Assembly (NCBI RefSeq): GCF_014237455.1
Contig: NZ_JABZFL010000089.1
Coordinates: 1 to 53,132 of the forward strand
Source of the DNA: Desulfobacula sp.
GTDB taxonomy: Bacteria; Desulfobacterota; Desulfobacteria; Desulfobacterales; Desulfobacteraceae
DNA: 53,132 nt
Direction of reading: 5' to 3'
A program made the translations under genes and the position numbers. How positions within the stretch are numbered: position 1 is the first letter of the stretch; each line of letters opens with the position of its first letter. Below the pieces are notes generated by a model. The model was not told the origin of the DNA. It saw nothing but the letters and a program-made list of their open reading frames with translations, and ran no database searches. Shown one piece after another: positions 6,053 through 25,492 of the stretch.

Positions 6053-6068
6053 AGGATGACATAAATAA

Positions 6069-8442: not shown

Positions 8443-8445
8443 AGA

Positions 8446-9441: not shown

Positions 9442-9478
9442 TGAGTCTTCTTTCAAATTTTATGGCCGTTCATGTTTA

Positions 9479-12058
9479 TCATCCTTTATCAACAGCCGAC
9501 CTGAAATCATATTGGCCGTTCATAAAATCATCTATTAAAAATTCTAATTCCGTGTTTTCTTTAAGATACATATCCATGAGTTTCGTCGCCCCCAAAAGAC
9601 GCCCTGTCATATCCAGTGTTTCTTTCATGGTTTTTAATGAACCGTTCTTGAACTCTGCATCAATAAGATCTGATGTGATCTCCACCATAAACCCGAGCCG
9701 TGTTAAAATTTCTTTAATAAAATTGGCCCTGAGAAACCTTCCGGCAGGACTGCCACCGCCACCGGAAAATCTGAAAAGAATATAATTATCTTTTTTTGAA
9801 GAAGAGCAGATGGTATCCAGAATAACAAAATGATATCCAAACCTGAAGTTGACGTTTAAATACTCTTTTGACAGAACCGCATAGCTTCCGAACATAGAGG
9901 AATCTGCACTGATGATGCCTCCGGCCATGACAATTCTGTCATATTCCTCCCAGTCAAAATGGGTGGTTTCAGACCAGCATATTCCCGGGTTTGACAGCCC
10001 TTCTAATACGGCTTTCATAGGAATGCTGGCAATATCTTTTGGCCTCAATATTTTTTCATTCATCTGTCCCGCTTTGATTCCCTGGCCCACATCAAGGACA
10101 TAAAAGAGCATAGGGATATCGGAGATGAGTTTTTTTGCCCCTTTTTTCCTGCCGCCTTTTCTATCTCCGATTAAAAACATTTCTTTCACAGCAGTTTCAT
10201 GAACAAACCGGATAATATCATGAAGAGATCTGCATGCTTCCGGGACAAAAGAGTCGGACTCAGGATCAGTCAGTTTTAATTTGGCACAAAAATTAATCAC
10301 ATACTGCAGTTTGACCATAAAAGAGCTGTCTTTGAAAAAATTCTCTTTTGATGTGGTTCTTTCTAATAAAGATTTTACCGTTCCTTCGTATACAATACAT
10401 CTGTCTGCATCCACAGTCACATGACTTCCCTGGACAAGATCATCGAATCCATTGCCGACATTTACAATGGCTGGAACCCCATATTCCCTGGCAATGGATG
10501 AAAAATGGCTGGCGCGGCTTCCCGTGCCGATAATGATCGCAGTCATTTTATTTATTGCTATAACAAATTGAGGCAAAGCATGTCTGACCACAACCACTGA
10601 TCCATCGGGGATATGGAGTGCTTGCGATAAGTGTTCAAGTCTGTAGACAGGACCTGAACCGGTTCCCGGAGAGACCATCTCTCCCCCCGAACAAATAATT
10701 GTATTAATAATTTTATTTTCCGTGATCCGGACCTGTTTTTCGTTGTTTTGGATCGCACCTGGATGGAGATTCAACGGCCTGGACTGTAGGATAAAAAGCT
10801 TGCCGAATTTGTTCTGGCACCACTCAACATCCTGGGGTTGATTAAAATGAGCTTCAAGGGAAATGCCCCATCTGGCAAGGGTCAAAACAGATGGCTCATC
10901 AAGGGAAAGCAGATTTCTTTTGTCTTGGTCTGTATCAATGGTTTGGGTTTGAGTCTCCGGTTCTAAAACCATTTGTTTTAGTTTGGTTGCAATTTTTGTG
11001 CTGACAATAGTAACAGGATTTTTTTTTGATACCCTGATAACATCCGGTGATGCTTCCCCTTCCACGAGCAGTCCGCCCTGTCCCCAGACTGAATGGATTA
11101 ATAAATCGTCAGAAAGCGGGTCTTCAATATCCCGGGTATAGATCACACCGGATGTTTTTGAATCAATCATTTCAAGGACCAGGACAGCCATGGGGGTTTC
11201 ATCGTCCAGTATCCCGCGGCTGATCCTGTAAAAGAGTGCATGGGCGGAATATTTGCCGGCAATGACCTGTTTATATCCGTTTAAAACATCTTCTTTATTT
11301 ATATTTAACAGGGTTTGATACTGACCGGCAAAGGAAACTTTTCCATCCTCTTTAACAGCACTGCTTCGAAGTGCAACCCTGAAATTGACCTCCTTATTCT
11401 GCCCAAGGGAGTTTATGGCACCTGTTACAGCGGCATCAATATCTTCGGGTACCGTTGCATTTAATATTAATTGTTCAATTTTACGGGCTGTCCGTTCCAA
11501 AGATGAGGAGTCGCTGATATCAAGGTTGGCCAGTTGTTCATTAATGGGTTCCCGTAAATCATTGGTCTCCAAGAAATAATGAAAAGTATTGGTTGTGATG
11601 ACAAATCCATTGGGTGATGGCAGGTGGAGTTCATTATTCAGACAAGACAGAGAGAATGCCTTTCTGCCTGTAACTGCTTCATTAAATGATGAGATTTTAT
11701 CAAATTCGATGATAAATGGCGGTGAAAATTCAAACGCCTGTGGGGCAAGCATAAACCGGATATAAAAATCAAATTTCTTAAAATAATCTTTTAGGCTCCA
11801 ATAGTTTGACGGGCACATTTTTAAAAGTTCTTCAACCATTTTTAAAACTGAAGCTGCAAAGTGCTCATAGGTTTTTACGACGGTCTGAAAGTCACATTTT
11901 TTTTGAGTATAATAAATATCCTCCAGACTTGCCATAAACTCATGGGCTGCCTTGTCATATTCCAGCAAGGCCTTAAATGATTCGTATTTTTCTCTTAAAA
12001 TAGTTCCCGGAGAAAATACCTGGTATGTCCAGTATCTGAATAGGTTTTTAATCAACAT
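9479..12058 (-). CDS. PEP/pyruvate-binding, PEP-synthase-like protein
   Basis: An 859-residue cytoplasmic protein. The middle part (about 130-440) matches the PPDK/PpsA nucleotide-binding fold: VALRSSAVKEDG, SFAGQYQT, VLVLEMID, GVIYTRD, WGQGGLLVEG and QDVEWCQN. Residues about 480-570 are the swivelling phosphohistidine domain with the catalytic His in GSRASHFSSIAREYGVPA. The C-terminal 280 residues lack the PEP-binding TIM barrel of PpsA; they hold a less familiar domain with SGGGGSPAGRFLRANF. It may therefore be a phosphotransferase with a different acceptor, comparable with rifampin phosphotransferase-like or pyruvate-phosphate-dikinase-related proteins. No strong ribosome site precedes the ATG. 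It is the first gene of a two-gene unit with the phosphatase. Confidence 0.86.
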   Translation of the reverse strand: MLIKNLFRYWTYQVFSPGTILREKYESFKALLEYDKAAHEFMASLEDIYYTQKKCDFQTVVKTYEHFAASVLKMVEELLKMCPSNYWSLKDYFKKFDFYIRFMLAPQAFEFSPPFIIEFDKISSFNEAVTGRKAFSLSCLNNELHLPSPNGFVITTNTFHYFLETNDLREPINEQLANLDISDSSSLERTARKIEQLILNATVPEDIDAAVTGAINSLGQNKEVNFRVALRSSAVKEDGKVSFAGQYQTLLNINKEDVLNGYKQVIAGKYSAHALFYRISRGILDDETPMAVLVLEMIDSKTSGVIYTRDIEDPLSDDLLIHSVWGQGGLLVEGEASPDVIRVSKKNPVTIVSTKIATKLKQMVLEPETQTQTIDTDQDKRNLLSLDEPSVLTLARWGISLEAHFNQPQDVEWCQNKFGKLFILQSRPLNLHPGAIQNNEKQVRITENKIINTIICSGGEMVSPGTGSGPVYRLEHLSQALHIPDGSVVVVRHALPQFVIAINKMTAIIIGTGSRASHFSSIAREYGVPAIVNVGNGFDDLVQGSHVTVDADRCIVYEGTVKSLLERTTSKENFFKDSSFMVKLQYVINFCAKLKLTDPESDSFVPEACRSLHDIIRFVHETAVKEMFLIGDRKGGRKKGAKKLISDIPMLFYVLDVGQGIKAGQMNEKILRPKDIASIPMKAVLEGLSNPGICWSETTHFDWEEYDRIVMAGGIISADSSMFGSYAVLSKEYLNVNFRFGYHFVILDTICSSSKKDNYILFRFSGGGGSPAGRFLRANFIKEILTRLGFMVEITSDLIDAEFKNGSLKTMKETLDMTGRLLGATKLMDMYLKENTELEFLIDDFMNGQYDFRSAVDKG

Positions 12059-12162: not shown

Positions 12163-12212
12163 GCGCAATAAAAAAAATGCAGCGCCATATTTTTATTGCG
12201 CCATATTTTTAT
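12163..12212. repeat. Nested inverted and direct repeat
   Basis: GCGCAATAAAAA (12163-12174) is the exact complement of TTTTTATTGCGC (12190-12201). The 15-base unit GCGCCATATTTTTAT occurs twice in tandem at 12182-12196 and 12198-12212. The cluster lies about 210 bases upstream of the -24/-12 promoter candidate, a distance at which enhancer-type sites can work, but it could also be a transcript-end hairpin. Confidence 0.65.
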
Positions 12213-12422: not shown

Positions 12423-12437
12423 TGGCACGCTTATGGC
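12423..12437 (+). promoter_or_regulatory. Sigma-54 (-24/-12) promoter candidate
   Basis: TGGCAC, five bases, then TGGC: the GG and GC doublets have the required 10-base spacing, with one mismatch to the TTGC consensus. It lies 54 bases before the molybdoenzyme start. The NtrC-type activator at 23587-24978, at the far end of the same cluster, would be the natural partner. Confidence 0.6.
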
Positions 12438-12491
12438 TATAAAGGAATAAGAGGTTGCAAAATAAAAGTTTGCTAAAGGAGGCAATAAATT

Positions 12492-14573
12492 ATGGATAAA
12501 GATGTTTTCAGTTTGTGTTTCATGTGTTCTGTCAGGTGTCCTATTAAGGTTAAGGTAAAAGACGGACATGTAGACTGGATAGAAGGAAATCAACATGTAG
12601 CCGGTATAGACGGCAGCCTGTGTCCCAGAGGATCAGCAGGTAAATCCCTGCTCTATGATGATCAGAGGCTACAATCCCCGCTCATCAGGGTCGGTGAACG
12701 CGGGTCCGGGAATTGGAGAAAGGCTTCCTGGGAGGAAGCAATTGATTATGTCGCAACCCGGCTTAAGGAGATCATTGATAAAAATGGAGGGCACAGCATT
12801 GCCCTGTGTGAAAGGGCTCAGCTTTCAACCCATGTAAGCAAAACCTTTTTAAAGGCACTGAAATCCCCAAATCATTTTACCCATGATGCCCTGTGCAAGG
12901 GGTCTGTCAACACAGCCTGCCGTTCTTTATTCGGCTATACAGACGGCCAGATGGGAATCAATTATGGGAACACAAAACATATTGTTCTTTACGGCAGGAA
13001 TCTCTTTGAATCCCTGGCAGTAAAAGAAGTCAACACCCTGATGAATGCAATGGAAAAGGGTGCAAAGCTGACCTATATCGATCCCAGGGTAAATGTCACG
13101 GCTTCCAAGGCTCACCGGTACTGGATGATCCGGCCGGGAACCGATCTGGCCTTAAATTATGCCCTCATGCATGTCATTTTAAAGGAAAGGCTTTATGATG
13201 CGGAATTTGTTTCAAAATGGGTTCATGGTCTGAACGAACTTCAGGATTTTGTTGAAACCTATACACCCGAATGGGCACAAAAAGAGACGGGGATTTCGGC
13301 AGAAGAGATTATCAGTCTTGCAAGGGAAGTCAGCCAGGTCAAACCCGCCGTGATTTTTCATTATGGATATCGAGGGGCCAGCCAGACCAATGAAATTTAT
13401 ATGCGCCGGTCTATTCTGATGCTCAATGCCTTAATGGGCAGCGTGGAAGCAAAAGGCGGAATTTTCTTTAAAAAGGGTCCGGGAGAGGTCGGTGGAAAGG
13501 CTGCCAGAAAACTTGTCAGCCAGGATTTTCCAAAGATTGATGTGCCCAGATTTGATAAAGTCGGTACCAAGGATTTTCCACTTCCTGATCCCAGCCACGG
13601 GGTTGGACAAATTCTGCCCTATGCGATCTTGAATGAAGATCCTTATCCTTTGAAGGCATTGATTGCCTATCGTCTTGATCCGCTTATGTCCATTGCCGAT
13701 ACAAACCAGACCAAAAAAGCGCTGGAGAAGCTGGACCTAATTGTCGCCATTGACATTAACTATTCTGATATTGCCTGGTATTCAGATGTGATTTTGCCGG
13801 AATCCACTTATCTTGAGAGGACTGACTGTATCCAGCAGATGAACGGGCTCAAACCCCAGATGTTTTTGAGAAAAAAAGCGGTTGAACCCAGATATGATAC
13901 CATGGATGGCGCCGTGATTTTGAAGAAAATCGGTGAAAAGCTGGGAATAGGTGATTATTTTCCATACGAAACCATGGAAGACCTGGTCGACTGGCAGCTT
14001 GAAGGCACTGGTTTTACCAAGGAAGATTTTGAGAAAAAGGGATTTGTGGCCTATGGATCTGATCAGATTTTCTGGGACAGGGATAATCTTCCTTTTAAAA
14101 CCCCCTCCGGTAAAATAGAATTTAAATCCTCCCTGCTTGAAGATGCCGGGTTTAAATCTTTTCCCGAATATGAAGCGATTCCACAGCCCGAGGACGGTAA
14201 ATTTCGTCTGGTGGTGGGACGTTCGGCTATCCACACCCATGTGTCTACCCAGAATGTTCCCTATCTGAACGAACTGGAGAGTGAAAATACTTTGTGGATC
14301 AATACAGCCAAGGCAGATGAACTGGGGATTAAAAATAATGCTGTTGTTGAAGTGTCTTCACCAGTTGGTAAGGGCCAGATAAAAGCCTTTGTTACAGATC
14401 TGATCCATCCTGAAGCAGTTTTTATGCTCCATGGATATGGACATGAAGCCGCCAGGGCAAAAAGATCATTTAATAAAGGGCTTTCCGATGCAGTGCTTCA
14501 GGAAAATGTATATGACAAGGTCGGAGGAAGTCCTGCATTTCATGAGACCTTTGTAACGGTCAAACCCCTTTGA
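12492..14573 (+). CDS. Cytoplasmic molybdopterin oxidoreductase, PhsA/PsrA-like
   Basis: A 693-residue Mo/W-bisMGD enzyme. The N-terminal 4Fe-4S motif is CFMCSVRC with a fourth Cys in GSLCPRGSAG near residue 43. A likely metal-ligand Cys lies in HDALCKGS near 138. Cofactor-contact segments include YIDPRVN, DVILPESTYLERTD and the C-terminal MLHGYG molydop-binding domain. Thiosulfate and polysulfide reductases of this family normally carry a Tat signal; none is present here, so the enzyme should be cytoplasmic. The following genes supply a four-cluster ferredoxin and a GltD-like flavoprotein, pointing to NAD(P)H- or ferredoxin-linked turnover. The substrate is not identifiable, but a sulfur oxyanion or polysulfide is plausible given the TauE/SafE gene downstream. 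Start supported by AAGGAGG. Confidence 0.88.
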   Translation: MDKDVFSLCFMCSVRCPIKVKVKDGHVDWIEGNQHVAGIDGSLCPRGSAGKSLLYDDQRLQSPLIRVGERGSGNWRKASWEEAIDYVATRLKEIIDKNGGHSIALCERAQLSTHVSKTFLKALKSPNHFTHDALCKGSVNTACRSLFGYTDGQMGINYGNTKHIVLYGRNLFESLAVKEVNTLMNAMEKGAKLTYIDPRVNVTASKAHRYWMIRPGTDLALNYALMHVILKERLYDAEFVSKWVHGLNELQDFVETYTPEWAQKETGISAEEIISLAREVSQVKPAVIFHYGYRGASQTNEIYMRRSILMLNALMGSVEAKGGIFFKKGPGEVGGKAARKLVSQDFPKIDVPRFDKVGTKDFPLPDPSHGVGQILPYAILNEDPYPLKALIAYRLDPLMSIADTNQTKKALEKLDLIVAIDINYSDIAWYSDVILPESTYLERTDCIQQMNGLKPQMFLRKKAVEPRYDTMDGAVILKKIGEKLGIGDYFPYETMEDLVDWQLEGTGFTKEDFEKKGFVAYGSDQIFWDRDNLPFKTPSGKIEFKSSLLEDAGFKSFPEYEAIPQPEDGKFRLVVGRSAIHTHVSTQNVPYLNELESENTLWINTAKADELGIKNNAVVEVSSPVGKGQIKAFVTDLIHPEAVFMLHGYGHEAARAKRSFNKGLSDAVLQENVYDKVGGSPAFHETFVTVKPL

Positions 14574-14659
14574 TTAAAGGAAAATCAGGACAATGAGTCT
14601 GATAGCAACAAAAAGGTATAAATCAGATACTAAATTATATATAAGGTCGGAGGCTTTGA

Positions 14660-15175
14660 ATGAGTAAATATTATCTATTCCAGGACATTAAAAAATGTAT
14701 TGGATGTCATGCCTGTGAAATCCAGTGCAAGTCCAACAAGAATCTCCCCATAGGGCCGAAACTCTGCCAGATCATCCAGGTGGGTCCAAAATTTATTAAC
14801 GGGTTGCCGAAAACTTCATTTATTTTCATGCCCTGCTTTCATTGTGAAAACCCATGGTGTGTTTCTGCCTGTCCCACAGGGGCTATGCAGAAAAGAAGCA
14901 AGGATGGTATTGTTTTTGTTGATAAAGATCTGTGTGTGGGTTGTAAAACCTGTGTTTCTGCCTGCCCCTGGGGAGCTCCCCAGTGGAATCAGGATACAGG
15001 GAAGGTGGAAAAGTGCGACTATTGCATGGATAGAATAGACGAGGGGTTAGATCCTGCCTGCGTGACCACCTGTACAACTGGTTGCCTGCAGTTTGGTAAT
15101 GTTGAAGAAACAACTCAGATTCGGCGTGAGCGGCATGCATCAGCAGTTGCATCCCTTGAAAAAAGCAGTTTCTAG
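14660..15175 (+). CDS. Four-cluster 4Fe-4S electron-transfer subunit
   Basis: A 171-residue protein of the DmsB/PhsB type with four cysteine sets: CIGCHACEIQC, CFHCENPWCVSACP, CVGCKTCVSACPWG and CDYCMDRIDEGLDPACVTTC. It would carry electrons between the molybdoenzyme encoded upstream and the flavoprotein encoded downstream. It has no signal peptide, which matches a cytoplasmic complex. GGAGG precedes the ATG, and the next gene follows after 16 bases. Confidence 0.93.
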   Translation: MSKYYLFQDIKKCIGCHACEIQCKSNKNLPIGPKLCQIIQVGPKFINGLPKTSFIFMPCFHCENPWCVSACPTGAMQKRSKDGIVFVDKDLCVGCKTCVSACPWGAPQWNQDTGKVEKCDYCMDRIDEGLDPACVTTCTTGCLQFGNVEETTQIRRERHASAVASLEKSSF

Positions 15176-15191
15176 TCGTTAAGGAGAAAAA

Positions 15192-17357
15192 ATGGCAGAA
15201 AAAACCTGTCCGGTTAGAAAAACAGTTATTTATCTTTCTGAACAGATCAGTTCGGGATATTTAACTGATCCTAAAGGGAGGAGAATCTCTGAACAGATTT
15301 TGCATTTGACAGAAGAGATTGCAGAGGGCGCCGGCGGTTCTGATCATCTTTTGGCCATTGATTCTCTTATTGAAGAATATTTTTATGACACAAGTCTGGT
15401 GCAGAACATCGAAATCGGTAATTTCCTGAAAACAAAAATAGCGAAACACAGGGAAGTATTTCAAAGCCATATTGAAACAAAGAATTGCCCTTCCCACGAT
15501 TGTGGGAAGCTGGCGCCCTCACCCTGCCAGATGGCATGCCCTGCCGGAATTGACATCCCGACTTACCTGAGCCTGATTGCCGAAGGAAAGGATGCCCAGG
15601 CAATTGAAGTGATCCGCCGTGACAATCCATTGCCCTGGGTTTGCGGGCTGATCTGCACAAGACCCTGTGAAATGATGTGTGTCCGTGCCAGAATTGATAC
15701 GCCGGTTTCCATCAAGTTCTTAAAAGCCTTTGCAGCCGAAAGGGCAATGTCGGACAGGGCCTATAAAAATCCTGAGAAAGAGGATTTTAACGGGAGAAAA
15801 ATTTGTGTTGTCGGTGCCGGTCCGGGCGGACTTTCTGCTGCATACTATCTTGCGTTGATGGGCTATGGAGTAAGGGTAATTGAGGATCTGCCCGTTCCAG
15901 GTGGTATGATTATGGTGGGAATCCCAAGATATCGCCTGCCAAGGGAAGTAATTGACAGGGAAGTGGCTATGATTGAAGATCTTGGTGTTGAATTTTCTTA
16001 TAATACTCGGTTTGGAAAAGATGTTTCATTTGAGCAATTGAAAAAGGAGGGTTATGAAGCCTTTTTTATTGCCATTGGTGCCCATAAATCCTGGGATCTG
16101 GGAATAAAAGGGGAAAAAGATTTTCCAAAGGTTTTTGATGCCGTTGAATTTTTAAAAGATGTGGCCTTAGGGGAACACCATGTACCCGGCAAACATGTGG
16201 TTGTTATCGGTGGTGGAAATGTTGCCATAGATGCAGCAAGGACCAGTCTAAGGCTTGGAGCTGAGAGGGTATCCATTGCCTACAGGCGCTCCAGAACCCA
16301 GATGCCGGCGGATATAGAGGAAGTTGAGCAGGCAGAGGAAGAAGGCATTGAATTTGCTTTTTTAACCATTCCCAAAGAAGTTGTTGGTGAAAACGGTATC
16401 ATTACCGGGCTTGAGTGTATTAAAGCCGAGTTGATCAAGAAAAAAGGATCTGACAGACTGGCACCCGTTCCCATACTGGGCAAGGATTTTACTATCAAAG
16501 CAGATGCTGTCATCAGTGCCATTGGTCAATATGTGGATGATGATGGCATGGAAGCCTTTGATCAAATGAACTGGACACGCAGAGGTACCATAGAAGTGAA
16601 TCATGCCAGTATGGAAACCACCATGCCGGGTGTGTTTGCAGCAGGGGATGCTGTGTCCGGTCCTGCAACCGTGATTGAGGCCATTGGCGGAGGAAAAAGG
16701 GCGGCAGAGGCAATAGATCGGTATCTGAACCATATCCCCCAGCCCAGGATGCCTAAACTTCCCATCAGGCATAATATTGAACATCCCATTGAAATGTCAG
16801 CCAGCCGGAAAATGACCCTTAAACATCCTGAAATGCCCATGCTGAATGTAGACAGGCGGCGAACCATGTTTCAGCAGGTAGAACTTGGGTATGATGAAGA
16901 AAGTGTCCGCCGGGAGGCTGCCAGGTGTCTTAGGTGCGATATCTGCCGAAGATGCGGAAAATGTGTGGAAATCTGCAGGGATAAGATGGGGATTGATGCG
17001 CTTAAATTCGGATATATGGATTTTGATAATCCTTCTGAAACAGATTTCAGGGCAACAAGTGAAAAATGCATTACCTGTGGAGCATGTGCGGCTAATTGTG
17101 AAAATAAAGCTATTGTCATCGAAGAAGAGAATGGGCAAAGGATGCTGAAACTTTGTGGCACGATTTTGAACAAACAGGAGATCCAATATTGTGAAGAATG
17201 TAATGCTGTTCTCCCCTCTATTGAGTATCTACAGTTTATTTCTCAGAAAACAGGGAATGTCACAAAAGTGACTGAGAGCAGGCTCTTGTGCAATAATTGC
17301 CAGCGGAAGCTAAGTGCAAAAATTAATGTTGAAACACGACCTGTTAACCTAAAATAA
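15192..17357 (+). CDS. GltD-like NAD(P)H/FAD oxidoreductase with extra FeS domains
   Basis: A 721-residue flavoprotein. Residues 1-100 are a helical region without clear family. Residues about 105-190 hold the Cys-rich GltD N-terminal FeS domain (CQMACPAGIDIPTY, CGLICTRPCEMMC). Two dinucleotide folds follow: FAD site VVGAGPGGLSAAYYLA near 206 and NAD(P) site VVIGGGNVAIDAAR near 337, with AIGQ and the FAD-closing AAGDAVSGPATVIEAIG. Residues about 575-640 add two ferredoxin sets (CLRCDICRRCGKCVEIC and CITCGACAANC), and the tail has CEEC and CNNC pairs like a zinc ribbon. It likely links the NAD(P)H pool to the molybdoenzyme through the ferredoxin subunit. Electron bifurcation is conceivable but not shown. 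Confidence 0.92.
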   Translation: MAEKTCPVRKTVIYLSEQISSGYLTDPKGRRISEQILHLTEEIAEGAGGSDHLLAIDSLIEEYFYDTSLVQNIEIGNFLKTKIAKHREVFQSHIETKNCPSHDCGKLAPSPCQMACPAGIDIPTYLSLIAEGKDAQAIEVIRRDNPLPWVCGLICTRPCEMMCVRARIDTPVSIKFLKAFAAERAMSDRAYKNPEKEDFNGRKICVVGAGPGGLSAAYYLALMGYGVRVIEDLPVPGGMIMVGIPRYRLPREVIDREVAMIEDLGVEFSYNTRFGKDVSFEQLKKEGYEAFFIAIGAHKSWDLGIKGEKDFPKVFDAVEFLKDVALGEHHVPGKHVVVIGGGNVAIDAARTSLRLGAERVSIAYRRSRTQMPADIEEVEQAEEEGIEFAFLTIPKEVVGENGIITGLECIKAELIKKKGSDRLAPVPILGKDFTIKADAVISAIGQYVDDDGMEAFDQMNWTRRGTIEVNHASMETTMPGVFAAGDAVSGPATVIEAIGGGKRAAEAIDRYLNHIPQPRMPKLPIRHNIEHPIEMSASRKMTLKHPEMPMLNVDRRRTMFQQVELGYDEESVRREAARCLRCDICRRCGKCVEICRDKMGIDALKFGYMDFDNPSETDFRATSEKCITCGACAANCENKAIVIEEENGQRMLKLCGTILNKQEIQYCEECNAVLPSIEYLQFISQKTGNVTKVTESRLLCNNCQRKLSAKINVETRPVNLK

Positions 17358-17369
17358 AAGGAAATAATC

Positions 17370-17585
17370 ATGCAATTCCAGAGAGGGGATAAAATCGAGG
17401 TGTATAGAAAATCACAGGATGAAGCATGGGAGCCTTATATGGATGACTTTATCGGGCTTCACGGATTTATAACAGACCCGGATACCACCATCAATGATCC
17501 GGATTCATTGATCAGGGTCAGCCTGCAGGGCAAAGGCACCCATCGGCTTCCCCAGGATTCTTTAAGACTTATTGGTAAACCTTAA
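17370..17585 (+). CDS. Small hypothetical protein of the redox cluster
   Basis: A 71-residue soluble protein with AAGGAAA in front of the ATG, 12 bases after the flavoprotein gene. It reads MQFQRGDKIEVYRK at the start and has many acidic residues; the short beta-rich pattern would fit an SH3-like fold. No family is recognised. Tight spacing to both neighbours argues that it is expressed with the operon. Confidence 0.75.
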   Translation: MQFQRGDKIEVYRKSQDEAWEPYMDDFIGLHGFITDPDTTINDPDSLIRVSLQGKGTHRLPQDSLRLIGKP

Positions 17586-17603
17586 CAAAGGAATGAAGAT
17601 ATA

Positions 17604-18053
17604 ATGAAGGTAAAAGATTGTTTGGAAGAGTGTGCCGGTCATTTTCATACTATAGAGCAGGACCAGACAGTGGAACAGGCCCTTAAACTGATGTCAGGCT
17701 ATAATGTATCAGCCCTTGTGGTGATGAAAAAAGAAACATCCCAGGGTATTTTTACGGAACGGGATCTTCTGCGGTGTCATATTATTTTTTCAAATAAAGA
17801 TATTAAAAATATTCTGGTCAAGGAAGTGATGACATCAAAACTCATTGTGGCTGAGCCTGGCGACACAATTGAAGATGCCATGGGAATGATGATCAAGGCA
17901 AAGATCCGCCACCTGCCAGTGGTTTTGGATGGACAAATCAAAGGGATGCTCAGCCTTGAAGATCTTGTTAAAAAACATGTCAGTGTTTTAAACAAGGAAC
18001 TTCATTATCTTAAAGATTATATTTCAGACCTTCAGGATGCAGCCTATGATTAA
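17604..18053 (+). CDS. CBS-pair protein
   Basis: A 149-residue stand-alone CBS pair. The first motif runs over about 8-60 (TVEQALKLMSGYNVSALVVM, GIFTERDLL) and the second over about 75-130 (VKEVMTSKLIVAEPGDTIEDA, HLPVV, GMLSLEDLV). Such modules bind adenine nucleotides or NAD(P) and report energy state, so it may tune the redox complex. The gene overlaps the start of the NuoG-like gene. Confidence 0.92.
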   Translation: MKVKDCLEECAGHFHTIEQDQTVEQALKLMSGYNVSALVVMKKETSQGIFTERDLLRCHIIFSNKDIKNILVKEVMTSKLIVAEPGDTIEDAMGMMIKAKIRHLPVVLDGQIKGMLSLEDLVKKHVSVLNKELHYLKDYISDLQDAAYD

Positions 18054-18804
18054 TATTACCATTGATGATAAGGAAATTTCAGCCAGAGAAAATCAGACCA
18101 TTCTCCAGGTTGCAAAGGAAAACGGGATTAAAATACCCCATTTATGTTTTCATCCCGCACTGAAACCATCAGGAGCCTGTAAACTTTGCGGTGTTGAAGT
18201 GGTATCCCCCACAGGTAAACAAGTGGTGATGCTGTCCTGTATTATTAAAGTTAAAGAAGATCTTAAGGTAAAAACCAATTCAGAACTGGTGAAAGCCAGG
18301 CGGGAACAAGCGTTTAACAAGTTGTTGCAGATGGCACCTGACTCGTTAAGAATCCGGAATCTTGCAAAGGAATTTAATGTTGCCATAACACCGCCGCCCA
18401 ACGGCTGTATTCGCTGCCGGCTTTGTATCAGGGTCTGTAGTGAAATCGTAAAAGCCAAAGCATTGAAAATGGAGAAAACGCCTAATGGAAGCAGGGTGGT
18501 ACCAAACCCGGGTTGCTGCATCGGGTGCGGAACCTGTGCTAACCTCTGCCCCACCAATATTATCAAGGTGGTTGACCAGGACAGTGTCAGAACGGTTTCC
18601 ATAAAAGAAGAGATTATCGGGCAACTGCCCCTGGAACGGTGTGAGGGCTGCACAAAAATGTATGCAACCTCTAATTTTCTCAAGCATGTGGGAGAGACGA
18701 CCCTTGCCCATCCCGATACCAAGGAGCATCACAACCTATGTCCCTCCTGCATAAAACTTATGTCAAACAGGGCCATAACTGAAAGGGAAAGGATACACAA
18801 ATGA
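18046..18804 (+). CDS. NuoG/HydA-N-terminal-like 2Fe-2S and 4Fe-4S ferredoxin protein
   Basis: About 252 residues from the ATG at 18046; a start three codons upstream is possible. Residues 1-75 form a plant-type 2Fe-2S domain (CFHPALKPSGACKLCGVEVV, later SC). Residues about 125-180 carry two 4Fe-4S sets (CIRCRLCIRVC and CCIGCGTCANLCP). The C-terminal part has CEGC and CPSC pairs. This is the layout of the soluble electron-entry part of NuoG and NADP-reducing hydrogenases, without a catalytic domain. It probably forms part of the electron-input module with the GltD-like flavoprotein. It overlaps the CBS gene by eight bases and the next gene by ATGA. Confidence 0.88.
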   Translation: MINITIDDKEISARENQTILQVAKENGIKIPHLCFHPALKPSGACKLCGVEVVSPTGKQVVMLSCIIKVKEDLKVKTNSELVKARREQAFNKLLQMAPDSLRIRNLAKEFNVAITPPPNGCIRCRLCIRVCSEIVKAKALKMEKTPNGSRVVPNPGCCIGCGTCANLCPTNIIKVVDQDSVRTVSIKEEIIGQLPLERCEGCTKMYATSNFLKHVGETTLAHPDTKEHHNLCPSCIKLMSNRAITERERIHK

Positions 18805-19184
18805 CCATCGCAGCCATAAAATCACTTTTCATTGGTGTAGGCGGATCATTGATCCTTGCTGTTTTCTGTTCAACATTTATTGCCACAGATAAAGTTTTGT
18901 TCATCCTGCCGCTGTTTATTGCATTCAACGGGGCAATGACAGGGTACAGACTGGTGGAAGCACTTAAAACCGGGATTATGAATATTCCTCTTTTTTCATT
19001 TGTGCTGGGAGTCGGCACAGGGGCACTTACCTTTGTTGCCGTGAATTTTGCTATAAATTTTGCCGGGCCGTTTATGGGGGACATAGTTTTACTGAATATT
19101 TATGATTTGTTTATTTATATGATTGTATCAGGAATCACAAGTTATCTGGGGGCAAAACTGGCTGTCAGATATTTTAATTTATAA
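18801..19184 (+). CDS. Small membrane protein, unknown function
   Basis: A 127-residue protein made up almost wholly of about four hydrophobic spans (FIGVGGSLILAVFC, VLFILPLFIAFNG, FSFVLGVGTGALTFVAVNF, FIYMIVSGITSYLGA). No family is recognised. ATGA overlap with the ferredoxin gene and 32 bases to the exporter gene place it in the operon. It might assist the exporter or anchor the redox proteins at the membrane. Confidence 0.8.
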   Translation: MTIAAIKSLFIGVGGSLILAVFCSTFIATDKVLFILPLFIAFNGAMTGYRLVEALKTGIMNIPLFSFVLGVGTGALTFVAVNFAINFAGPFMGDIVLLNIYDLFIYMIVSGITSYLGAKLAVRYFNL

Positions 19185-19216
19185 TTATCATGTATGTTTT
19201 TAAAAAGGAGAGTCAA

Positions 19217-20911
19217 ATGAAGAAAATTTTTTACCATTTTATTTTGATGACGCTTGTGTTGCTATTTACAGCGTCAGGATCTTTTGCCGGGGATGGTATC
19301 TCAGCATCCTCCTATAAAGCCGGGGATGTGGTTGAAATCACCGGAAAGATCGCGCCGGGCCAGGATTTGTACCTTGCCATTGCACAATCTGAAATGTTTG
19401 CACCCAAAGACACGGATGGTGCATTTGAGACTAAAAGATTTAAAAAGGATAGTAAAAAAGCAGGATTTGCCCTGGATACAGAGATTCCACCTCTTTATTA
19501 CATGATTACCAATGTACCGGAAAAATTCGGTAAAGTTGATAAGAAAAGGTTTGGCGGCCCGTCCGTTCTTCTGAAAAAAGGACAGGGGATTTACTCCACC
19601 ACCATGTTCTATCTGAAAAAGAAATTCAATGATGTAGATGCTGTGGCTCGCACAATGATGGGCCCCATCAAATCAGACGAGCAGTGGAATTTTTTAAGGT
19701 ATGCCAATGAGAGTAGTTATGGTATTAATACCATTGTTAAAGAAAGTAACAGAACAGGTAAAGTAGTTATTTTTTCAAAAACTGTCATCGGTGACCAGTC
19801 AAGCGGTAATTACTGGGACAAGGGCACCTACGTAAAGCTTGATAAAGCAACCGGTGAGTTTACAGTCTCCTTTAAATCCTTCAGGCATACCCCTCCCAAC
19901 ACCAAATTTGATGTGTATGTGAACAATGCAAAAATAGGCGACTATAAACTGGAGAAAAACGGATTCTGGCTTTCCAAGGCTTATCGGTATATGAATCCTT
20001 TATGGATTGTTATTGGTGCCATTCTCGTGGGAACCTATTTTTCAATGATCGGTGCAGCCGGTGGTATGCTCATGGCAGCCTTCCAGGTGTTGGTTGTCAA
20101 CACCATGGGGCCTGTGGGTATCAATGCAGCCAATGTATTAAAACCCTCCAATATAGCCCTGACCCTGTTTAGCCCCTTAGGATCTTTCTGGCGGTATGCC
20201 AAGATTGAAAAGCGGGTTGCATGGCCCGTGGGACTCTCCTTTGGAGCAGGTATTTTTATCGGCTCCATCTGGCTTGGTAAATATGTATCCGCGATTCTTC
20301 CCATGAAAGCCTATAAAGAATGGCTGGCCATCCTGGTTGTTCTCATGGGAATCAAGACCCTTATGGAAATGACTCCAAAGGCCATGAATAAAAGAAAAAA
20401 CATCAAGGCCATGACCCAGAAATTTAATAAAGAGGTTGCGGCAGCCAAAGCTGAAGGCCGTTCAGCAGAAATGGGCAGTATTGAGCCTGTAAAAACAGGC
20501 CTGATGGATTATCGGTTTAAATTCTGGGGTGAAGAATTTAGAATCAACCCATTACTTTTTGCATTCCTGGGTATTTTTATTGGTATCGTATCCCGATCCT
20601 TTGGTATTGGCGGCGGATTCCTTCTGGTACCTGCCATGACCACTTTGGCCGGGCTTCCCATGTATGTGGCAGTTCCCATATCCTTGATCGGAACCTGTTT
20701 TTCCAGTATCGGGTCCTTTATTGGATATCTCATGGCCGGATACCTGCCTGACATGACCCTGGCCATTGCCATTATTATTGGTGGATTTGCCGGTGGTATG
20801 CTTGGCAGTCGTGCCCAGAAAATGTTTTCTGAAATGACCTTGAAGATTGTTCTTGCAGTTACATTGTTCTTCTTGTTCTTTAGATTTTTTAAGATTGAAA
20901 TCTGGATATAA
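19217..20911 (+). CDS. TauE/SafE-family exporter with large periplasmic N-terminal domain
   Basis: About 564 residues from the ATG at 19217, chosen because AAGGAG lies just before it and a signal peptide (MKKIFYHFILMTLVLLF, cut near SFAG) starts there. Residues about 25-250 form an extracytoplasmic, beta-rich domain. From about 255 on there are roughly eight membrane spans with the repeated family pattern GAAGGMLMAAFQV and GIGGGFLLVPAMT. The family moves sulfite, sulfonates and related anions. The long soluble head is uncommon and may bind the substrate or protein partners. A hairpin terminator follows, so the gene probably closes the first transcription unit. Confidence 0.88.
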   Translation: MKKIFYHFILMTLVLLFTASGSFAGDGISASSYKAGDVVEITGKIAPGQDLYLAIAQSEMFAPKDTDGAFETKRFKKDSKKAGFALDTEIPPLYYMITNVPEKFGKVDKKRFGGPSVLLKKGQGIYSTTMFYLKKKFNDVDAVARTMMGPIKSDEQWNFLRYANESSYGINTIVKESNRTGKVVIFSKTVIGDQSSGNYWDKGTYVKLDKATGEFTVSFKSFRHTPPNTKFDVYVNNAKIGDYKLEKNGFWLSKAYRYMNPLWIVIGAILVGTYFSMIGAAGGMLMAAFQVLVVNTMGPVGINAANVLKPSNIALTLFSPLGSFWRYAKIEKRVAWPVGLSFGAGIFIGSIWLGKYVSAILPMKAYKEWLAILVVLMGIKTLMEMTPKAMNKRKNIKAMTQKFNKEVAAAKAEGRSAEMGSIEPVKTGLMDYRFKFWGEEFRINPLLFAFLGIFIGIVSRSFGIGGGFLLVPAMTTLAGLPMYVAVPISLIGTCFSSIGSFIGYLMAGYLPDMTLAIAIIIGGFAGGMLGSRAQKMFSEMTLKIVLAVTLFFLFFRFFKIEIWI

Positions 20912-20937
20912 CCCTTATAAAGGGTAAATGAACCTTG

Positions 20938-20990
20938 AAACCCGTGTGCTGAATCTCTATAATGATTGAATCAGCCACGGGTTTTATTTT
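20938..20990 (+). terminator. Probable intrinsic terminator after the TauE/SafE gene
   Basis: AAACCCGTG (20938-20946) pairs with CACGGGTTT (20976-20984), extended inward by GCTGA (20948-20952) with TCAGC (20971-20975), leaving an 18-base loop. The run TTTTATTTT follows on the plus strand. It separates the exporter gene from the membrane-protein/kinase genes downstream and may be only partly efficient. Confidence 0.7.
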
Positions 20991-21002
20991 AAGGGAAAGT
21001 TT

Positions 21003-21590
21003 ATGGATGATTTTCTGGACAGGGTGTGGGACCTGATTTATGGTTTTTTGCAAAGCACGGTGGTGTTTCTGGATGCTTTGTTTTCTCCCCTAGAGATTTT
21101 AGGCCCCGGGGTTGTGATATTTCTCCTTGCCTTTATAGTTGTCATTATAACAAGAATCATAGCACGATTTTATGTGACCAAAAGATATGTACGCCTGGAA
21201 AAGGAATACCTGCATTGGCAGGGTGTGAGAAAAGAGGCAATGAAGCATCCTGACAGGGAAAAAGGCAAAGCCCTGGCAAAAAATATCGACCAGGCCCAGT
21301 TAAACAGGGCCTACTATGATTATTTCTTTGAAGGAATATTAAAGCATTTTATCGGCAATGTCCTTCCCATATTGTTGATGGTTGCCTATGTGGCAAAGGT
21401 GTATACACCCCAAACCCTTTTAAGTCGGTTTGGAGAAGAATGGGTATTTTCCTTTTCTTTTGGGTCTTCATCTCAGACGAATGTCGGTTCCATGCTCTGG
21501 TTTGTTGTTTGTCTTATTTTGTCATTTATACTCTTTGCAGTATTAAAAATGGTCTTTAAAAAACGATATGCCAAAAAAGAATCCGTATAA
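21003..21590 (+). CDS. Membrane protein of unknown function
   Basis: A 195-residue protein with spans near residues 32-55 (VVIFLLAFIVVIITRIIA), 113-130 and 165-190, and a charged middle (YLHWQGVRKEAMKHPDREKGKALAK). The arrangement recalls DUF106/YidC-like small insertase relatives, but this is only a resemblance. AAGGGAAAG precedes the ATG. The gene overlaps the following one by 23 bases and so heads the unit that carries the kinase and activator. Confidence 0.75.
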   Translation: MDDFLDRVWDLIYGFLQSTVVFLDALFSPLEILGPGVVIFLLAFIVVIITRIIARFYVTKRYVRLEKEYLHWQGVRKEAMKHPDREKGKALAKNIDQAQLNRAYYDYFFEGILKHFIGNVLPILLMVAYVAKVYTPQTLLSRFGEEWVFSFSFGSSSQTNVGSMLWFVVCLILSFILFAVLKMVFKKRYAKKESV

Positions 21591-22074
21591 TATAAAGCGG
21601 TTTTTAAAATTCCTCCCGGCAATGACTATTGCAGGTTTGATCTTACTGCCCATAGATGTATCTGCCACTCAGCTTCACTCGAATTCGGAAGGGATTATCA
21701 CCCACCAGGTGGGACATCTTTTTTTTCTTTTTTCCATGGTGGCCCTTATTTTTACCATCACGGGCAAGGGATTGGATAAACAAAAAGGCTGGCGCCTGAT
21801 TCAATACTCGGCCTTCTTTTTTATCCTCTGGAATCTGGATGCCGTTGCAGCCCATTTTTTTGATAACCAGATCAATGCCGTAAAAATTGAGAATATATCC
21901 TTTGGGAAAATGAGGATCATCACCAACAATGATTCATCCCTGCTCGCCTGGTTTTATTATATTTTAAAACTGGATCACCTTTTATGTGTGCCTGCCATGC
22001 TGCTTCTTTACAGGGGACTTTCACATCTTGTTGATGACCAAAGGCAGATGATGGTGAAAAAGGACACCCCATGA
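21568..22074 (+). CDS. Membrane protein of unknown function
   Basis: A 168-residue protein with an N-terminal hydrophobic segment that could be a signal or anchor (FLPAMTIAGLILLPIDVSA), then spans near 47-62, 75-92 and 130-150. Conserved-looking histidines (HQVGHLFF, AAHFFD, LDHLL) might bind a metal or heme, which would suit a redox sensor; this is speculation. It overlaps the previous gene and the kinase gene (ATGA), so it may form a membrane sensing unit with the kinase. Confidence 0.75.
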   Translation: MPKKNPYNIKRFLKFLPAMTIAGLILLPIDVSATQLHSNSEGIITHQVGHLFFLFSMVALIFTITGKGLDKQKGWRLIQYSAFFFILWNLDAVAAHFFDNQINAVKIENISFGKMRIITNNDSSLLAWFYYILKLDHLLCVPAMLLLYRGLSHLVDDQRQMMVKKDTP

Positions 22075-23567
22075 TTGCTTCGTTTATTCCCATACTGGCA
22101 GTCGATGTTTTAGGCTCTGTAGCCATGGTGGTGATTTCGCTTCTATCGCTTTACAAGGCAAAAATATTACGGGAGATGGACCCGGATAATGCAGTCTTTC
22201 ATTATCTGCTATGGATCAGTATGGGACTCACAATTTTTTCCGTATCAAGATCCTTCGGTCATATATTAAAACAGTTTTTAGTTCTCACTTCAAATGCAGG
22301 CACCTGGCATTCCATCAGTGCCTTTTCAGGAAGTGTGAACACTGTTTCTTTTATGCTGGTAGGCCTGATCACCCTTTTTTTCAACCAGAGCTGGAAGATT
22401 AACGAGAAAATTCTTACGGGCAGGAAAAAGCTTGAAGACATCCATATTGAACTCATGGATCTGAATCAGACCCTTGAGAATAAAGTGGTTGAGAGAACAG
22501 AAAGGCTCACAAGCAGTGAGCATAAATGCCGCAGAATATTTGAACAATCCCTGGATACCATTATTGTTACAGACAGTGAATTTAAGATCATGGAGATTAA
22601 CCCGGCCGGGATCGCATTGACCGGGTATGCTCGCGACGAAATGATCATGAAAAAAATGACGGCAGGCAAGTTTTTTGCCGATCCTTCCGAATGGGAAAGA
22701 ATCAGTAACAAGATCGGTTCAAAAGAATATATTTTAAATGAGGAAATCGAATTTTTAAAACCGGACAATGAATCCCTACTGGTTCTGATGACCGGCGGCA
22801 TTGATTACGGAGCGTTCGGATGTGCAAAAACCTATCATTTCATCATCAAGAATATAAATGAAAAAAGGCAGATGGAACGGCAAATCGCTCAGGCAGACAA
22901 GTTTGCCGCATTGGGAGAATTGTCTGCTGGTGTGGCCCATGAAATAAACAATCCTTTGGGAATTATCCTTGGATATACACAGCTTTTGTTAAAACTGGAG
23001 CCCAAACATAAAGATGATTTAAAAATTATAGAAAAACACGTACAGAATTGCAAAACAGTTGTATCTGATCTTCTTTCTTTTTCGCGAAAAGGCTCTTCCG
23101 AATTGAGTATTATTGACATCAACAAGGTGGTTGATGGTGTGGCCAAATTTTTATCCAACCATTCTGATTTCAGGAATGTTGAAATGTCGCTGAATCCTTA
23201 TACGGGAGACAGGCTTAATATCCTTGGAAATGAACAGGAGCTTGGACAGGTGATTGTAAATCTTTTAATCAATGCCTGTCACGCAGTTGATGGAAAAGGA
23301 AATATTGATATTACCACTCAGAAAACAGGACAGGACAATATCCTGATTATGGTGAAGGATAATGGAAAAGGGATTGGGAAAAAGAATTTATCCAGGATTT
23401 TTGATCCATTTTTCACTACAAAACCGGTTGGTCAGGGTACGGGGCTTGGACTTTCTGTCGGATATGGTATTATTAAACGGCACCAGGGAGATATCCGTGT
23501 AAAAAGCAGCGAAGGAAAGGGAACGTTATTCACAATCAGCCTTCCTGCTGATAGAACTATGGCTTAA
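22071..23567 (+). CDS. Membrane histidine kinase with PAS domain
   Basis: A 498-residue kinase. The N-terminal 120 residues contain three spans (VDVLGSVAMVVISLLSLY, YLLWISMGLTIFS, VSFMLVGLITLFF), then a coiled coil (LEDIHIELMDLNQTLENKVVERTERL), a PAS domain at about 155-265, HisKA with His290 in AHEINNPLG, and an HATPase with NLLINACHAV and GTGLGLS. It is 19 bases from the sigma-54 activator gene and surely its partner. The phosphoacceptor region is closely similar to that of the kinase at 6069, which suggests a shared lineage. Confidence 0.94.
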   Translation: MIASFIPILAVDVLGSVAMVVISLLSLYKAKILREMDPDNAVFHYLLWISMGLTIFSVSRSFGHILKQFLVLTSNAGTWHSISAFSGSVNTVSFMLVGLITLFFNQSWKINEKILTGRKKLEDIHIELMDLNQTLENKVVERTERLTSSEHKCRRIFEQSLDTIIVTDSEFKIMEINPAGIALTGYARDEMIMKKMTAGKFFADPSEWERISNKIGSKEYILNEEIEFLKPDNESLLVLMTGGIDYGAFGCAKTYHFIIKNINEKRQMERQIAQADKFAALGELSAGVAHEINNPLGIILGYTQLLLKLEPKHKDDLKIIEKHVQNCKTVVSDLLSFSRKGSSELSIIDINKVVDGVAKFLSNHSDFRNVEMSLNPYTGDRLNILGNEQELGQVIVNLLINACHAVDGKGNIDITTQKTGQDNILIMVKDNGKGIGKKNLSRIFDPFFTTKPVGQGTGLGLSVGYGIIKRHQGDIRVKSSEGKGTLFTISLPADRTMA

Positions 23568-23586
23568 GTACGACCGGGGGATAAAA

Positions 23587-24978
23587 ATGAAAGCAAGCAT
23601 TCTTGCAGTTGACGATGAAAAAGACATGACAAGGCTTTTGCAGAGAACCCTTGAACCTGAAATTAACTGCAGGGTTTTCATGGCGTTTTCAGCAAAAATG
23701 GCCATGTCGATTCTTGAGCAGGAGGAGTTTGACCTGGTCATTTGTGATATCAGGATGCCGGGTATGGACGGGTTTGAACTGCTTGAGCATATACGGTCAA
23801 ATTATCCCGATTTGACAGTGGTCATGCTGACCGCTTTCGGCAATATTGAATCTGCTGTAAAGGCCATTAAAAAGGGGGCCTATGATTTTATCCCCAAACC
23901 TTTTGAACAGGATGAGATCATTTTTAAAATCCAAAAAGCCCTTGAAAGAAGTTTATTGTTAAAGGAAAATAAACGGCTTTTAAAGGAAAAAGAGATCAGG
24001 CCCTCACATTTGATTGGGAAAAGTGAACCCATGCAAAAGGTGTTTGATCAAATCAGCCTGGTTGCATCAAGTGATGTTACCGTGTTGCTCACAGGAGAAT
24101 CAGGAACGGGAAAAGATCTGGCCGCAAGATCCATACACGCCTTAAGCCCGCGAAAAGATAAAAGGTTTATCCCTGTCAACTGCCCGACCATTCCGGAGCT
24201 CATCCTGGAAAGTGAATTGTTCGGTTATAAACAGGGCGCATTTACCAATGCCACCCGGGACAAGAATGGGCTTTTCCAGGAGGCGGACAAGGGAACGATT
24301 TTTCTGGACGAAATCGGGGATATAGGGTCTTCCATCCAGACAAAATTATTAAGAGTCCTCCAGGAAAAGGAAATAAAACCCCTTGGGGACACAAAAGTAA
24401 AAAAAGTGGATGTGCGGATCATTGCATCCACCAACAGAAATCTTAAACAGAAGATTGCCGACCATGAATTCCGCGAGGATTTTTTTTACCGGTTGAATGT
24501 CCTTCCCATTGAACTGCCGCCGTTAAGAGACAGAATAACCGATATTCCGATCCTTGCCGAACACCTTGTGGCAAAGCATTGCAAAAAGTTGAAAAAAGAA
24601 TTGAAAACGATTTCCGAAGAGGCAATGGATCTTTTGATGAAGCAGCCATGGCCCGGAAATGTAAGGGAGCTTGAAAATGTTCTTGTCCAGGGAATTCTCT
24701 ATTCAAAAGAGAATATAATTGTCCTGTCTGATATACCCTTAAGGGATGCAGACCCCAAAAAATATGATTCTAAAGAGCCTGACAGCAGCATTTCATCGCT
24801 GCCATATAAAGAAGCAAAAGAAAAAGTACTCCATGAGTTTAACCACGATTATATCGGTGCCAAGCTCTCCATGACCACCGGCAATATCACCCGGGCGGCA
24901 AAGCGCTGTCATATGGATCGGCAGGCCCTGCAGCAGATCATGAAACGATTCTCCATTGATCCGGAACTTTTTCGCTAA
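23587..24978 (+). CDS. NtrC-family sigma-54-dependent response regulator
   Basis: A 463-residue activator. The receiver (1-120) has D54 in ICDIRMPGMDG, LTAFG and KPF. The AAA+ domain (about 140-370) has Walker A GESGTGKD, the sigma-54 contact loop seen here as GAFTNA, Walker B FLDEIGD and the arginine-finger region FREDFFYRL. The C-terminal Fis-type helix-turn-helix (about 425-463) includes ITRAAKRCHMDRQALQQ. The likely target is the -24/-12 site at 12423-12437 in front of the molybdoenzyme gene. Confidence 0.95.
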   Translation: MKASILAVDDEKDMTRLLQRTLEPEINCRVFMAFSAKMAMSILEQEEFDLVICDIRMPGMDGFELLEHIRSNYPDLTVVMLTAFGNIESAVKAIKKGAYDFIPKPFEQDEIIFKIQKALERSLLLKENKRLLKEKEIRPSHLIGKSEPMQKVFDQISLVASSDVTVLLTGESGTGKDLAARSIHALSPRKDKRFIPVNCPTIPELILESELFGYKQGAFTNATRDKNGLFQEADKGTIFLDEIGDIGSSIQTKLLRVLQEKEIKPLGDTKVKKVDVRIIASTNRNLKQKIADHEFREDFFYRLNVLPIELPPLRDRITDIPILAEHLVAKHCKKLKKELKTISEEAMDLLMKQPWPGNVRELENVLVQGILYSKENIIVLSDIPLRDADPKKYDSKEPDSSISSLPYKEAKEKVLHEFNHDYIGAKLSMTTGNITRAAKRCHMDRQALQQIMKRFSIDPELFR

Positions 24979-25124: not shown

Positions 25125-25424
25125 ATGGAAGATAAAATTGCAGCAAAAAAATTGGCAGAACTTGGACATATTACTCGACTTTCTATCTTTAGATATCTTG
25201 TAAAGGTCGGAGATGAAGGTGCGCCTGTCGGCCAAATTCAAGAAAAACTGAATATCCCCGGGTCTACCCTGTCACACCATATCAGCCGATTGATTTCAGT
25301 AGGCTTGATCAGACAGGTAAGAGAGAGTCGGACATTATACTGTATCCCACAGTTTGAGGTTCTTAACGAGCTTGTAGACTTTCTTCAGTCTGAGTGTTGT
25401 ACCGAAGGAAAATGTAACCCGTAA
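25125..25424 (+). CDS. arsR: ArsR/SmtB-family repressor
   Basis: A 99-residue winged-helix repressor: LGHITRLSIFRYLV, recognition helix region GSTLSHHISRLISVGLIRQVRESRTLYC. The C-terminus has Cys91, Cys92 and Cys97 (CCTEGKC), resembling the C-terminal arsenite-binding thiol site known in some ArsR proteins such as that of Acidithiobacillus ferrooxidans. It precedes an ArsP-like permease gene by 68 bases, and both genes have a copy of the same operator-like sequence. No Shine-Dalgarno sequence precedes the ATG, in line with the leaderless promoter. The inducer is probably a trivalent arsenical; antimony or another metalloid is possible. Confidence 0.92.
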   Translation: MEDKIAAKKLAELGHITRLSIFRYLVKVGDEGAPVGQIQEKLNIPGSTLSHHISRLISVGLIRQVRESRTLYCIPQFEVLNELVDFLQSECCTEGKCNP

Positions 25425-25439
25425 AATTTTTTTGCTGAT

Positions 25440-25465
25440 ATATTTCGAAATATTTAGAAATATAG
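25440..25465. promoter_or_regulatory. ArsR-type operator candidate, copy 2
   Basis: This copy contains the perfect 14-base palindrome ATATTTCGAAATAT (25440-25453) and ends AAATATAG. It sits between the arsR-like stop codon and the permease ribosome site AAGGAG, suggesting separate control of the permease. Confidence 0.7.
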
Positions 25466-25492
25466 AATCACTATCATAAAAAGGAGAGTAAC

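Follow-up and report, generated by a model that had tools for sequence, protein, structure and literature searches.

Two membrane-bound molybdoenzyme complexes are the closest described relatives of the system considered here: PhsABC of enteric bacteria, which we compared through a copy on an Escherichia coli plasmid (locus L159), and PsrABC of Thermus thermophilus, a membrane-anchored periplasmic complex (PDB 2vpw). The system lies at positions 12,492 to 24,978 on the + strand of a 53,132-nucleotide stretch of DNA from Desulfobacula sp. (the window) and consists of genes A to RR, which encode a PhsA-like enzyme (A), ferredoxins, a flavoprotein, a TauE/SafE transporter, and a two-component system. 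Its A and B proteins are homologous to those of PhsABC, with the molybdenum-ligand cysteine conserved, at an identity of about 34%. The plasmid operon includes a cytochrome b subunit, whereas A and its close relatives (the A-types) have no Tat motif, and any partner found beside them was soluble or of the Rnf or complex I kind. In place of the membrane C subunit of PhsABC and PsrABC, the gene after B in the window encodes a GltD-like flavoprotein. The source genome, of 3.48 Mb, contains dsrA, from which the host is most likely a sulfate reducer. In the best reading of the gene set, which we consider about as likely as not, such an organism uses it to make a thiosulfate reductase that is cytoplasmic and NAD(P)H-linked.

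Gene A (12,492 to 14,573) matches Pfam families PF00384, PF01568, and PF04879 and encodes a molybdopterin oxidoreductase without a signal peptide, in which the molybdenum ligand Cys135 aligns with Cys173 of PsrA. Its best NCBIfam model was PhsA (619.5 bits); Fdh-alpha (277 bits), DmsA (232 bits), ArrA (186 bits), and TtrA (85 bits) scored lower. The best match in the PDB was Thermus PsrA, deposited as a thiosulfate reductase, at 502 bits over nearly the full length, as compared with 274 bits for acetylene hydratase and 244 bits for ArrA. In a phylogeny of 134 rows, made with FastTree only and after removal of duplicates with the same A sequence and of matches shorter than 1.9 kb, all 118 A-types grouped in a single clade (support, 100) that excluded E. 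coli PhsA and Thermus PsrA; the branches of the references are long and were flagged, and their exact placement is not trusted. The phylogeny proposed in the initial annotation thus separated A from PhsA and PsrA; ArrA entered the comparison by profile and PDB score only. The molybdenum-ligand cysteine was conserved in all 118 A-types, and a Tat-like motif was present in none of them but in seven of seven members of a class with 33% identity from related genomes. Because of this contrast, A is predicted to be a cytoplasmic enzyme, as the initial annotation had supposed for a signal-less protein.

The kinds of electron partner found beside A-type genes also serve formate dehydrogenases, in which the histidine that follows the active-site cysteine or selenocysteine is catalytic. 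In the A-types the residue after Cys135 is K, G, A, S, R, or D and in 0 of 118 cases histidine, so that this pair is absent; the Fdh-alpha score stands at 277 bits against 619 for PhsA, and a formate dehydrogenase would leave the linkage to TauE described below unexplained. That A is a formate dehydrogenase or CO2 reductase is therefore very improbable, although related genes may be so labeled. Such labels are carried by fdhF2 of Seep-SRB1g, next to nfnB (PMC10553843), and by Thermosulfurimonas TDIS_1010 (PMC4911364), either of which might be an A-type. In genome G000, the next-best match to A was a TGA-containing formate dehydrogenase-like frame at 156 bits, which leaves A as its only PhsA-like enzyme.

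The genes that follow A provide a candidate path for electrons. B (14,660 to 15,175), which adjoins A, was assigned by family matches as a DmsB-like ferredoxin of the four-cluster type, with 18 cysteines counted by eye. Relatives were surveyed in a scan of named genomes covering the best 80 of 532 (more exist), and B followed A at every one of the 72 loci whose downstream sequence reached 1.2 kb, the 8 shorter ones having been dropped. C (15,192 to 17,357) is a GltD/NfnB-like flavin adenine dinucleotide-NAD(P)H flavoprotein with Fe-S parts at its N and C termini (PF07992, PF14691, and PF13187). The PDB chains nearest to it include NfnA and the 8oh5 complex, probably Stn, and the GltD-like chains of 8oh5, 9n5u, and 9bov were closest. 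E (18,037 to 18,804) is a HoxU/NuoG-like ferredoxin with 2Fe-2S and 4Fe-4S parts (PF13510 and Fer4 models; HoxU, 93 bits). Between C and E lies D (17,604 to 18,053), a protein with two CBS domains (PF00571 in two stretches), for which the role of energy sensor given in the initial annotation is a guess. No NuoE/NuoF-like or NfnA-like partner was found among window genes A to RR, and NuoF-GltD or NuoEF occurs in some relatives.

Across the A-type relatives, the partner of A and B is exchanged. The kinds seen were GltD, NuoF-GltD, NuoEFG-like proteins, Rnf, and complex I without NuoEFG. In the 58 named loci with at least 5 kb of downstream sequence (22 of the 80 were dropped), GltD was present in 32, complex I in 9, NuoF with GltD in 8, Rnf in 3, NuoEF in 3, GltD with NuoEF in 2, and none in 1. 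One 1,130-residue chain at L117 joins NuoF and GltD. On the A-type tree, a partner was visible for 97 of the 118 rows, and among these it switches at least 13 times; the other 21 were left out of the count. The initial annotation's description of an NAD(P)H-linked system agrees with these NAD(P)H-type electron modules. Such swapping suggests a reaction at low potential that needs help from NAD(P)H, ferredoxin, or an ion gradient. The conversion of thiosulfate to sulfite and sulfide has a potential near −0.4 V, a value that would account for partners of these kinds.

Where complex I is the partner, A and B lie directly before nuo genes, with no nuoEFG seen in the stretch (L147, L148, L151, L153, L154, and L158, among others). 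They likewise precede nuo genes at L183, L184, L190, L191, and L199, and at L198, where B was masked in the open reading frame (ORF) pick. The row at L190 (G258) reads I-HK-RR, TauE, a TM200 protein, A, B, and nuo genes. In the tree, the complex I label denotes Nuo genes within 6 to 8 kb; those at L188 and L189, adjacent to A but on the opposite strand and of low identity, could be ordinary Nuo genes. The NuoEF label at L194 belongs to a gene in opposite orientation. At L145 two A-types occur together, one ahead of complex I genes and the other near gene I and a kinase. In the literature, PsrAB of Thermodesulfovibrio N1 lies beside a complex I lacking NuoEFG, and a coupling to sulfur chemistry has been suggested (PMC5165239). 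PhsA-1/PhsB-1 of Desulfolithobacter (GF1_30490/30500) have gene numbers adjoining those of the Nuo genes GF1_30510/30520, the proteins of which were detected solely in thiosulfate disproportionation (PMC9751629).

The same partners would suit sulfite oxidation too, so that the reaction may run in either direction. Run in reverse, A would be a cytoplasmic sulfite (or sulfite plus sulfide) dehydrogenase delivering low-potential electrons to NAD(P)+, ferredoxin, Rnf, or complex I; the sulfite/sulfate couple has a low potential, Rnf and complex I accommodate electron input as well as output, and TauE is by name a sulfite-linked family. The best matches of A, PhsA and PsrA, are however reductases, and sulfite oxidation would, we reason, oppose the main pathway of a sulfate reducer. 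We regard it as distinctly unlikely, even though complex I lacking NuoEFG has been thought perhaps to interact with an unknown electron-donating oxidoreductase (PMC12142623). We hypothesize, tentatively and at somewhat less than even confidence, that a PhsA+B head has docked on at least five kinds of electron or energy converter (GltD, Stn-like NuoF-GltD, NuoEFG-like proteins, Rnf, and complex I, where it replaces the NADH module). Together these would form a family of thiosulfate reductases (or sulfite dehydrogenases) with energy coupling and perhaps electron confurcation. If this is true, the family would provide the missing partner of NuoEFG-less complex I in many sulfate reducers and disproportionators. 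Both the input to NuoEFG-less complex I and the splitting of thiosulfate inside sulfate reducers are open in the literature (PMC9751629, PMC12142623), and PhsAB has had no functional analysis so far (PMC9751629).

The initial annotation had placed the operon under sigma-54 control, and this is supported by the upstream sequence. A promoter-like −24/−12 site, TGGCACGCTTATGGCT, lies at 12,423 to 12,438 (+ strand) with one mismatch to the consensus. Loose −24/−12 patterns are common (38 matches at ≤2 mismatches in the window versus 30 expected), but the site and an upstream palindrome were kept in 14 of 14 aligned sequences, those of the window and 13 relatives. At ≤2 mismatches with both GG and GC present, a site occurred within 300 bp of A in 48 of 125 rows, which include seven pairs from the same contig, as compared with 58 of 850 other long ORFs; for A genes with gene I nearby the figure was 33 of 43 (≤2 mismatches). 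Deduplicated, the counts are 18 of 118 at ≤1 mismatch and 44 of 118 at ≤2 mismatches, and for A genes close to gene I the figure becomes 31 of 41. The sole perfect −24/−12 consensus in the window, at 32,496 to 32,511 (− strand), is about 540 bp upstream of a gene for a TAXI-type binding protein (30,992 to 31,960; function assigned by eye).

The palindrome, 35 bp long (GCAATAAA...TTATTGC; 12,165 to 12,199, + strand), is a proposed binding site of the NtrC-type regulator and the single match in the window, where none was expected. When 58 genomes were searched with the exact pattern and with a fixed 35-mer at ≤3 mismatches, 25 sites were found in 22 of them, every one beside an A, B-C, or TorD-fused system and none in any other place; a reversed control pattern gave 0 matches. 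Thirteen sites precede A of clade 1 and four A of clade 2, three precede split B-C operons, two precede operons starting with C, and three (in G001, G020, and G025) precede the TorD-fused enzyme described below. Since the pattern was derived from regions upstream of A, most of the clade 1 matches arise by construction, whereas the other 12 do not. At G034:2120168, the next labeled gene is C, 0.9 kb on, and a B gene masked in the ORF pick probably lies between. Because separated operons have the palindrome in common, it is the strongest sign that A and B-C operons work together.

The putative sensor and regulator are encoded at the end of the gene set. Gene I (21,568 to 22,074), of no known family, encodes a 168-residue membrane protein that we propose as part of the sensor; H46, H50, D91, and H96 are invariant in seven aligned sequences, as if for heme or metal binding. 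Family matches identify HK (22,071 to 23,567) as a PAS sensor histidine kinase with a hydrophobic N-terminal part, and RR (23,587 to 24,978) is an NtrC-type sigma-54-dependent response regulator (PF00158 and PF00072). Gene I was present in all 22 genomes with the palindrome and in 14 without it.

G (19,190 to 20,911) belongs to the TauE/SafE (TSUP) transporters (PF01925, 111 bits against a cut-off of 32.6, residues 274 to 564), and its N-terminal extension of about 270 residues matched no Pfam family above the cut-off. An AlphaFold2 model of G (9 rows) had a mean pLDDT of 46 and was not used. "TauE/SafE exporter," the term of the initial annotation, is a family name that does not imply a direction of transport, and the prediction of TSUP functions in sulfate reducers has been called not feasible (PMC5840216). 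The linkage itself was supported: of the 80 named loci, 48 had flanks of at least 5 kb to either side of A (the other 32 were dropped), and TauE lay within 9 kb of A in 33 of these, as compared with 3 of 20 loci of control molybdoenzymes from the relatives (Fisher P = 6 × 10−5). At least two unlike types, that of G and a "type 2," occur near A, 24 to 31% alike where compared and with differing small membrane proteins. The three control loci with TauE are all of one kind, with a 930-residue molybdoenzyme that has a TorD-like chaperone domain fused in front. Such a fused enzyme is encoded at L164:8281-11067, L166:8281-11067, and L181, beside the same kinds of TauE. At L166 and in G001 it occupies the place of A to E, in G001 before F and G. 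It was found in 6 of the 58 genomes and an A-type in 31 (counted by hand, fragments included), and no genome had both.

It could be argued that the neighborhood is a loose group of sulfur genes, in which TauE and the regulator act in a pathway other than that of A. TauE was missing in 15 of the 48 loci, the gene order is rearranged at L051 and L053, F, G, and H are absent at L047, L048, and L078, and gene I occurs in 14 genomes without the palindrome. However, at ≤3 mismatches the palindrome was confined, in the 58 genomes, to places in front of A, of split B-C operons, and of the TorD-fused enzyme, and we consider a loose grouping improbable.

The distribution of the gene set is also informative. 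Conserved synteny had been put forward as a check in the initial annotation, and the order from A to RR was kept in seven fetched relatives (L039, L040, L042 to L045, and L050), with F partial in L045 and D partial in L050. L047, L048, and L078 retain A to C, E, and I-HK-RR, and at L051 and L053 C and G (F partly) lie ahead of A and NuoE/NuoF genes behind B. ORF picks at GC-rich loci were sometimes masked by antisense frames. The relatives of A, among the best 80 of 532, come from Desulfobacula, Desulfotignum, Desulfofundulus, Desulfacinum, Desulfobacca, Caldimicrobium, Nitrospirota, and others. In 395 genomes of the phylum, dsrA was present in 98 of 102 with an A-type and 92 of 293 without, at a threshold of ≥776 bits chosen after the scores had been seen and with 10 further genomes having weaker matches only (4 with dsrA and 6 without).

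The family of the enzyme, the linkage to TauE and dsrA, and the literature together point to thiosulfate as the compound handled inside the cell. Under the thiosulfate reductase reading, an outside sulfur signal would be sensed by I and the kinase, and the NtrC-type regulator would bind the palindrome and open the sigma-54 promoter. TauE might bring thiosulfate in or take sulfite out, and electrons from NAD(P)H would pass through C to E and B and then to A. In D. alaskensis, a putative PhsAB (Dde_1076), perhaps of the A-type, had fitness values of −0.79/−0.30 on thiosulfate (PMC4215793). A number of observations weigh against this reading. The PhsA score is under the 694-bit cut-off of the model, H145 of PsrA is replaced by R in 118 of 118 A-types and R332 by Y, W, or H, and the dsrA association may be confounded by shared ancestry. 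L047, L048, and L078 lack F, G, and H, the 15 loci without TauE include L099, L101 to L104, and Rnf-type loci, and at some loci A to C, with or without E, are present but TauE is not. G258, probably the genome of Thermodesulfatator indicus, has A, B, TauE, I-HK-RR, and complex I genes, and this species is not known to use thiosulfate. Two metagenome-assembled genomes labeled Desulfatirhabdium butyrativorans bear A (L091 and L092), and that species is reported as incapable of thiosulfate disproportionation (PMC9751629). In Desulfolithobacter, sulfate-reducing cells likewise contained both PhsA proteins, and during thiosulfate disproportionation little PhsA was present (PhsA-1 was only slightly higher there and PhsA-2 higher in sulfate reduction); the most abundant protein specific to that process was of the tetrathionate reductase type (PMC9751629). 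The D. alaskensis authors considered DsrAB to be probably the other thiosulfate reductase (PMC4215793).

It is also conceivable, though unlikely, that the same wiring serves the reduction of another sulfur compound (polysulfide, sulfur, tetrathionate, or an organic sulfur oxyanion). The similarity to PsrA and the altered pocket residues would fit, as would a cytoplasmic NAD(P)H-dependent polysulfide reductase with thiosulfate reductase activity that is reported from Thermotoga (PMC9431562). Tetrathionate is disfavored by the low TtrA score (85 bits), and the TauE linkage would favor a soluble sulfur oxyanion over polysulfide. Thiosulfate remains our preferred substrate.

The genes of the set are tightly packed, with short gaps or overlaps (the ends of D/E, E/F, H/I, and I/HK overlap), and the inventory claimed in the initial annotation, from the PhsA/PsrA-like enzyme to the NtrC-type activator, is complete, in place, and on the + strand. 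Two further members are membrane proteins of no family: F (18,801 to 19,184; 127 residues), kept beside G in relatives, and H (21,003 to 21,590; 195 residues), defined by ORF, Pfam, and synteny. Upstream lie a PhnD-like periplasmic binding protein (5,132 to 6,052, + strand; PF12974, 178 bits; weak TtrS match, 29 bits), a possible second sensor module, and, by family matches, a second histidine kinase and a single receiver domain (6,069 to 8,105 and 8,080 to 8,442, + strand), homologs of which occur near A elsewhere. They are followed on the − strand by two recurrent neighbors, a DSP phosphatase/CxxCxxCC protein (8,446 to 9,456) and a PPDK_N/PEP-utilizer protein (9,479 to 12,058). Parts of this set from 5,132 to 12,058 recur near A or the TorD-fused enzyme (e.g., L117, L164, L197, L201, and L229). 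Directly downstream of the operon are an ArsR-type regulator and an ArsP_1 permease (25,125 to 26,599); as operon members they were rejected, since 40 fetched relative loci gave two weak matches to arsP (22 and 25% identity) and none to arsR. By eye, the remainder (26,651 to 53,132) contains a CoA transferase, TRAP transporters, genes of a cyclohexadienoyl/benzoyl-CoA-type degradation, and AOR-like and HdrA-like proteins.

In comparison with known systems, the initial annotation's claim of an undescribed system stood only in part. PhsAB without a C subunit (Desulfolithobacter) and PsrAB with complex I (Thermodesulfovibrio N1) are already in print (PMC9751629, PMC5165239), and both probably belong to the complex I branch of the A family, as judged by gene numbering only. 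In those two papers TauE is mentioned 0 times, and their passages on these genes do not bring up the GltD, NuoEF, and Rnf variants, the two-component system, or the palindrome; no description of the GltD/TauE/two-component form, the partner exchange, or the palindrome was found in searches of the open-license PubMed Central literature. With this gene set, an enzyme, its electron path, a transporter, a regulator, and a DNA site are all defined for testing, and TSUP transporters gain a genomic context. The PsrABC complex, the best structural match, differs in its pocket (H145 and R332 are not kept) and lies outside the A-type clade. The Nfn/Stn-type transhydrogenases (8oh5, 9n5u, and 9bov) share with C the GltD-like FAD/NAD(P)H subunit and its N-terminal Fe-S part (PF14691 and PF07992), but in the window, where NuoEF is not in the gene set, C stands beside a PhsA-type enzyme. 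A comparable pairing is that of fdhF2 and nfnB in Seep-SRB1g, in which a molybdoenzyme called a formate dehydrogenase adjoins an NfnB-like gene and is predicted to be bifurcating (PMC10553843).

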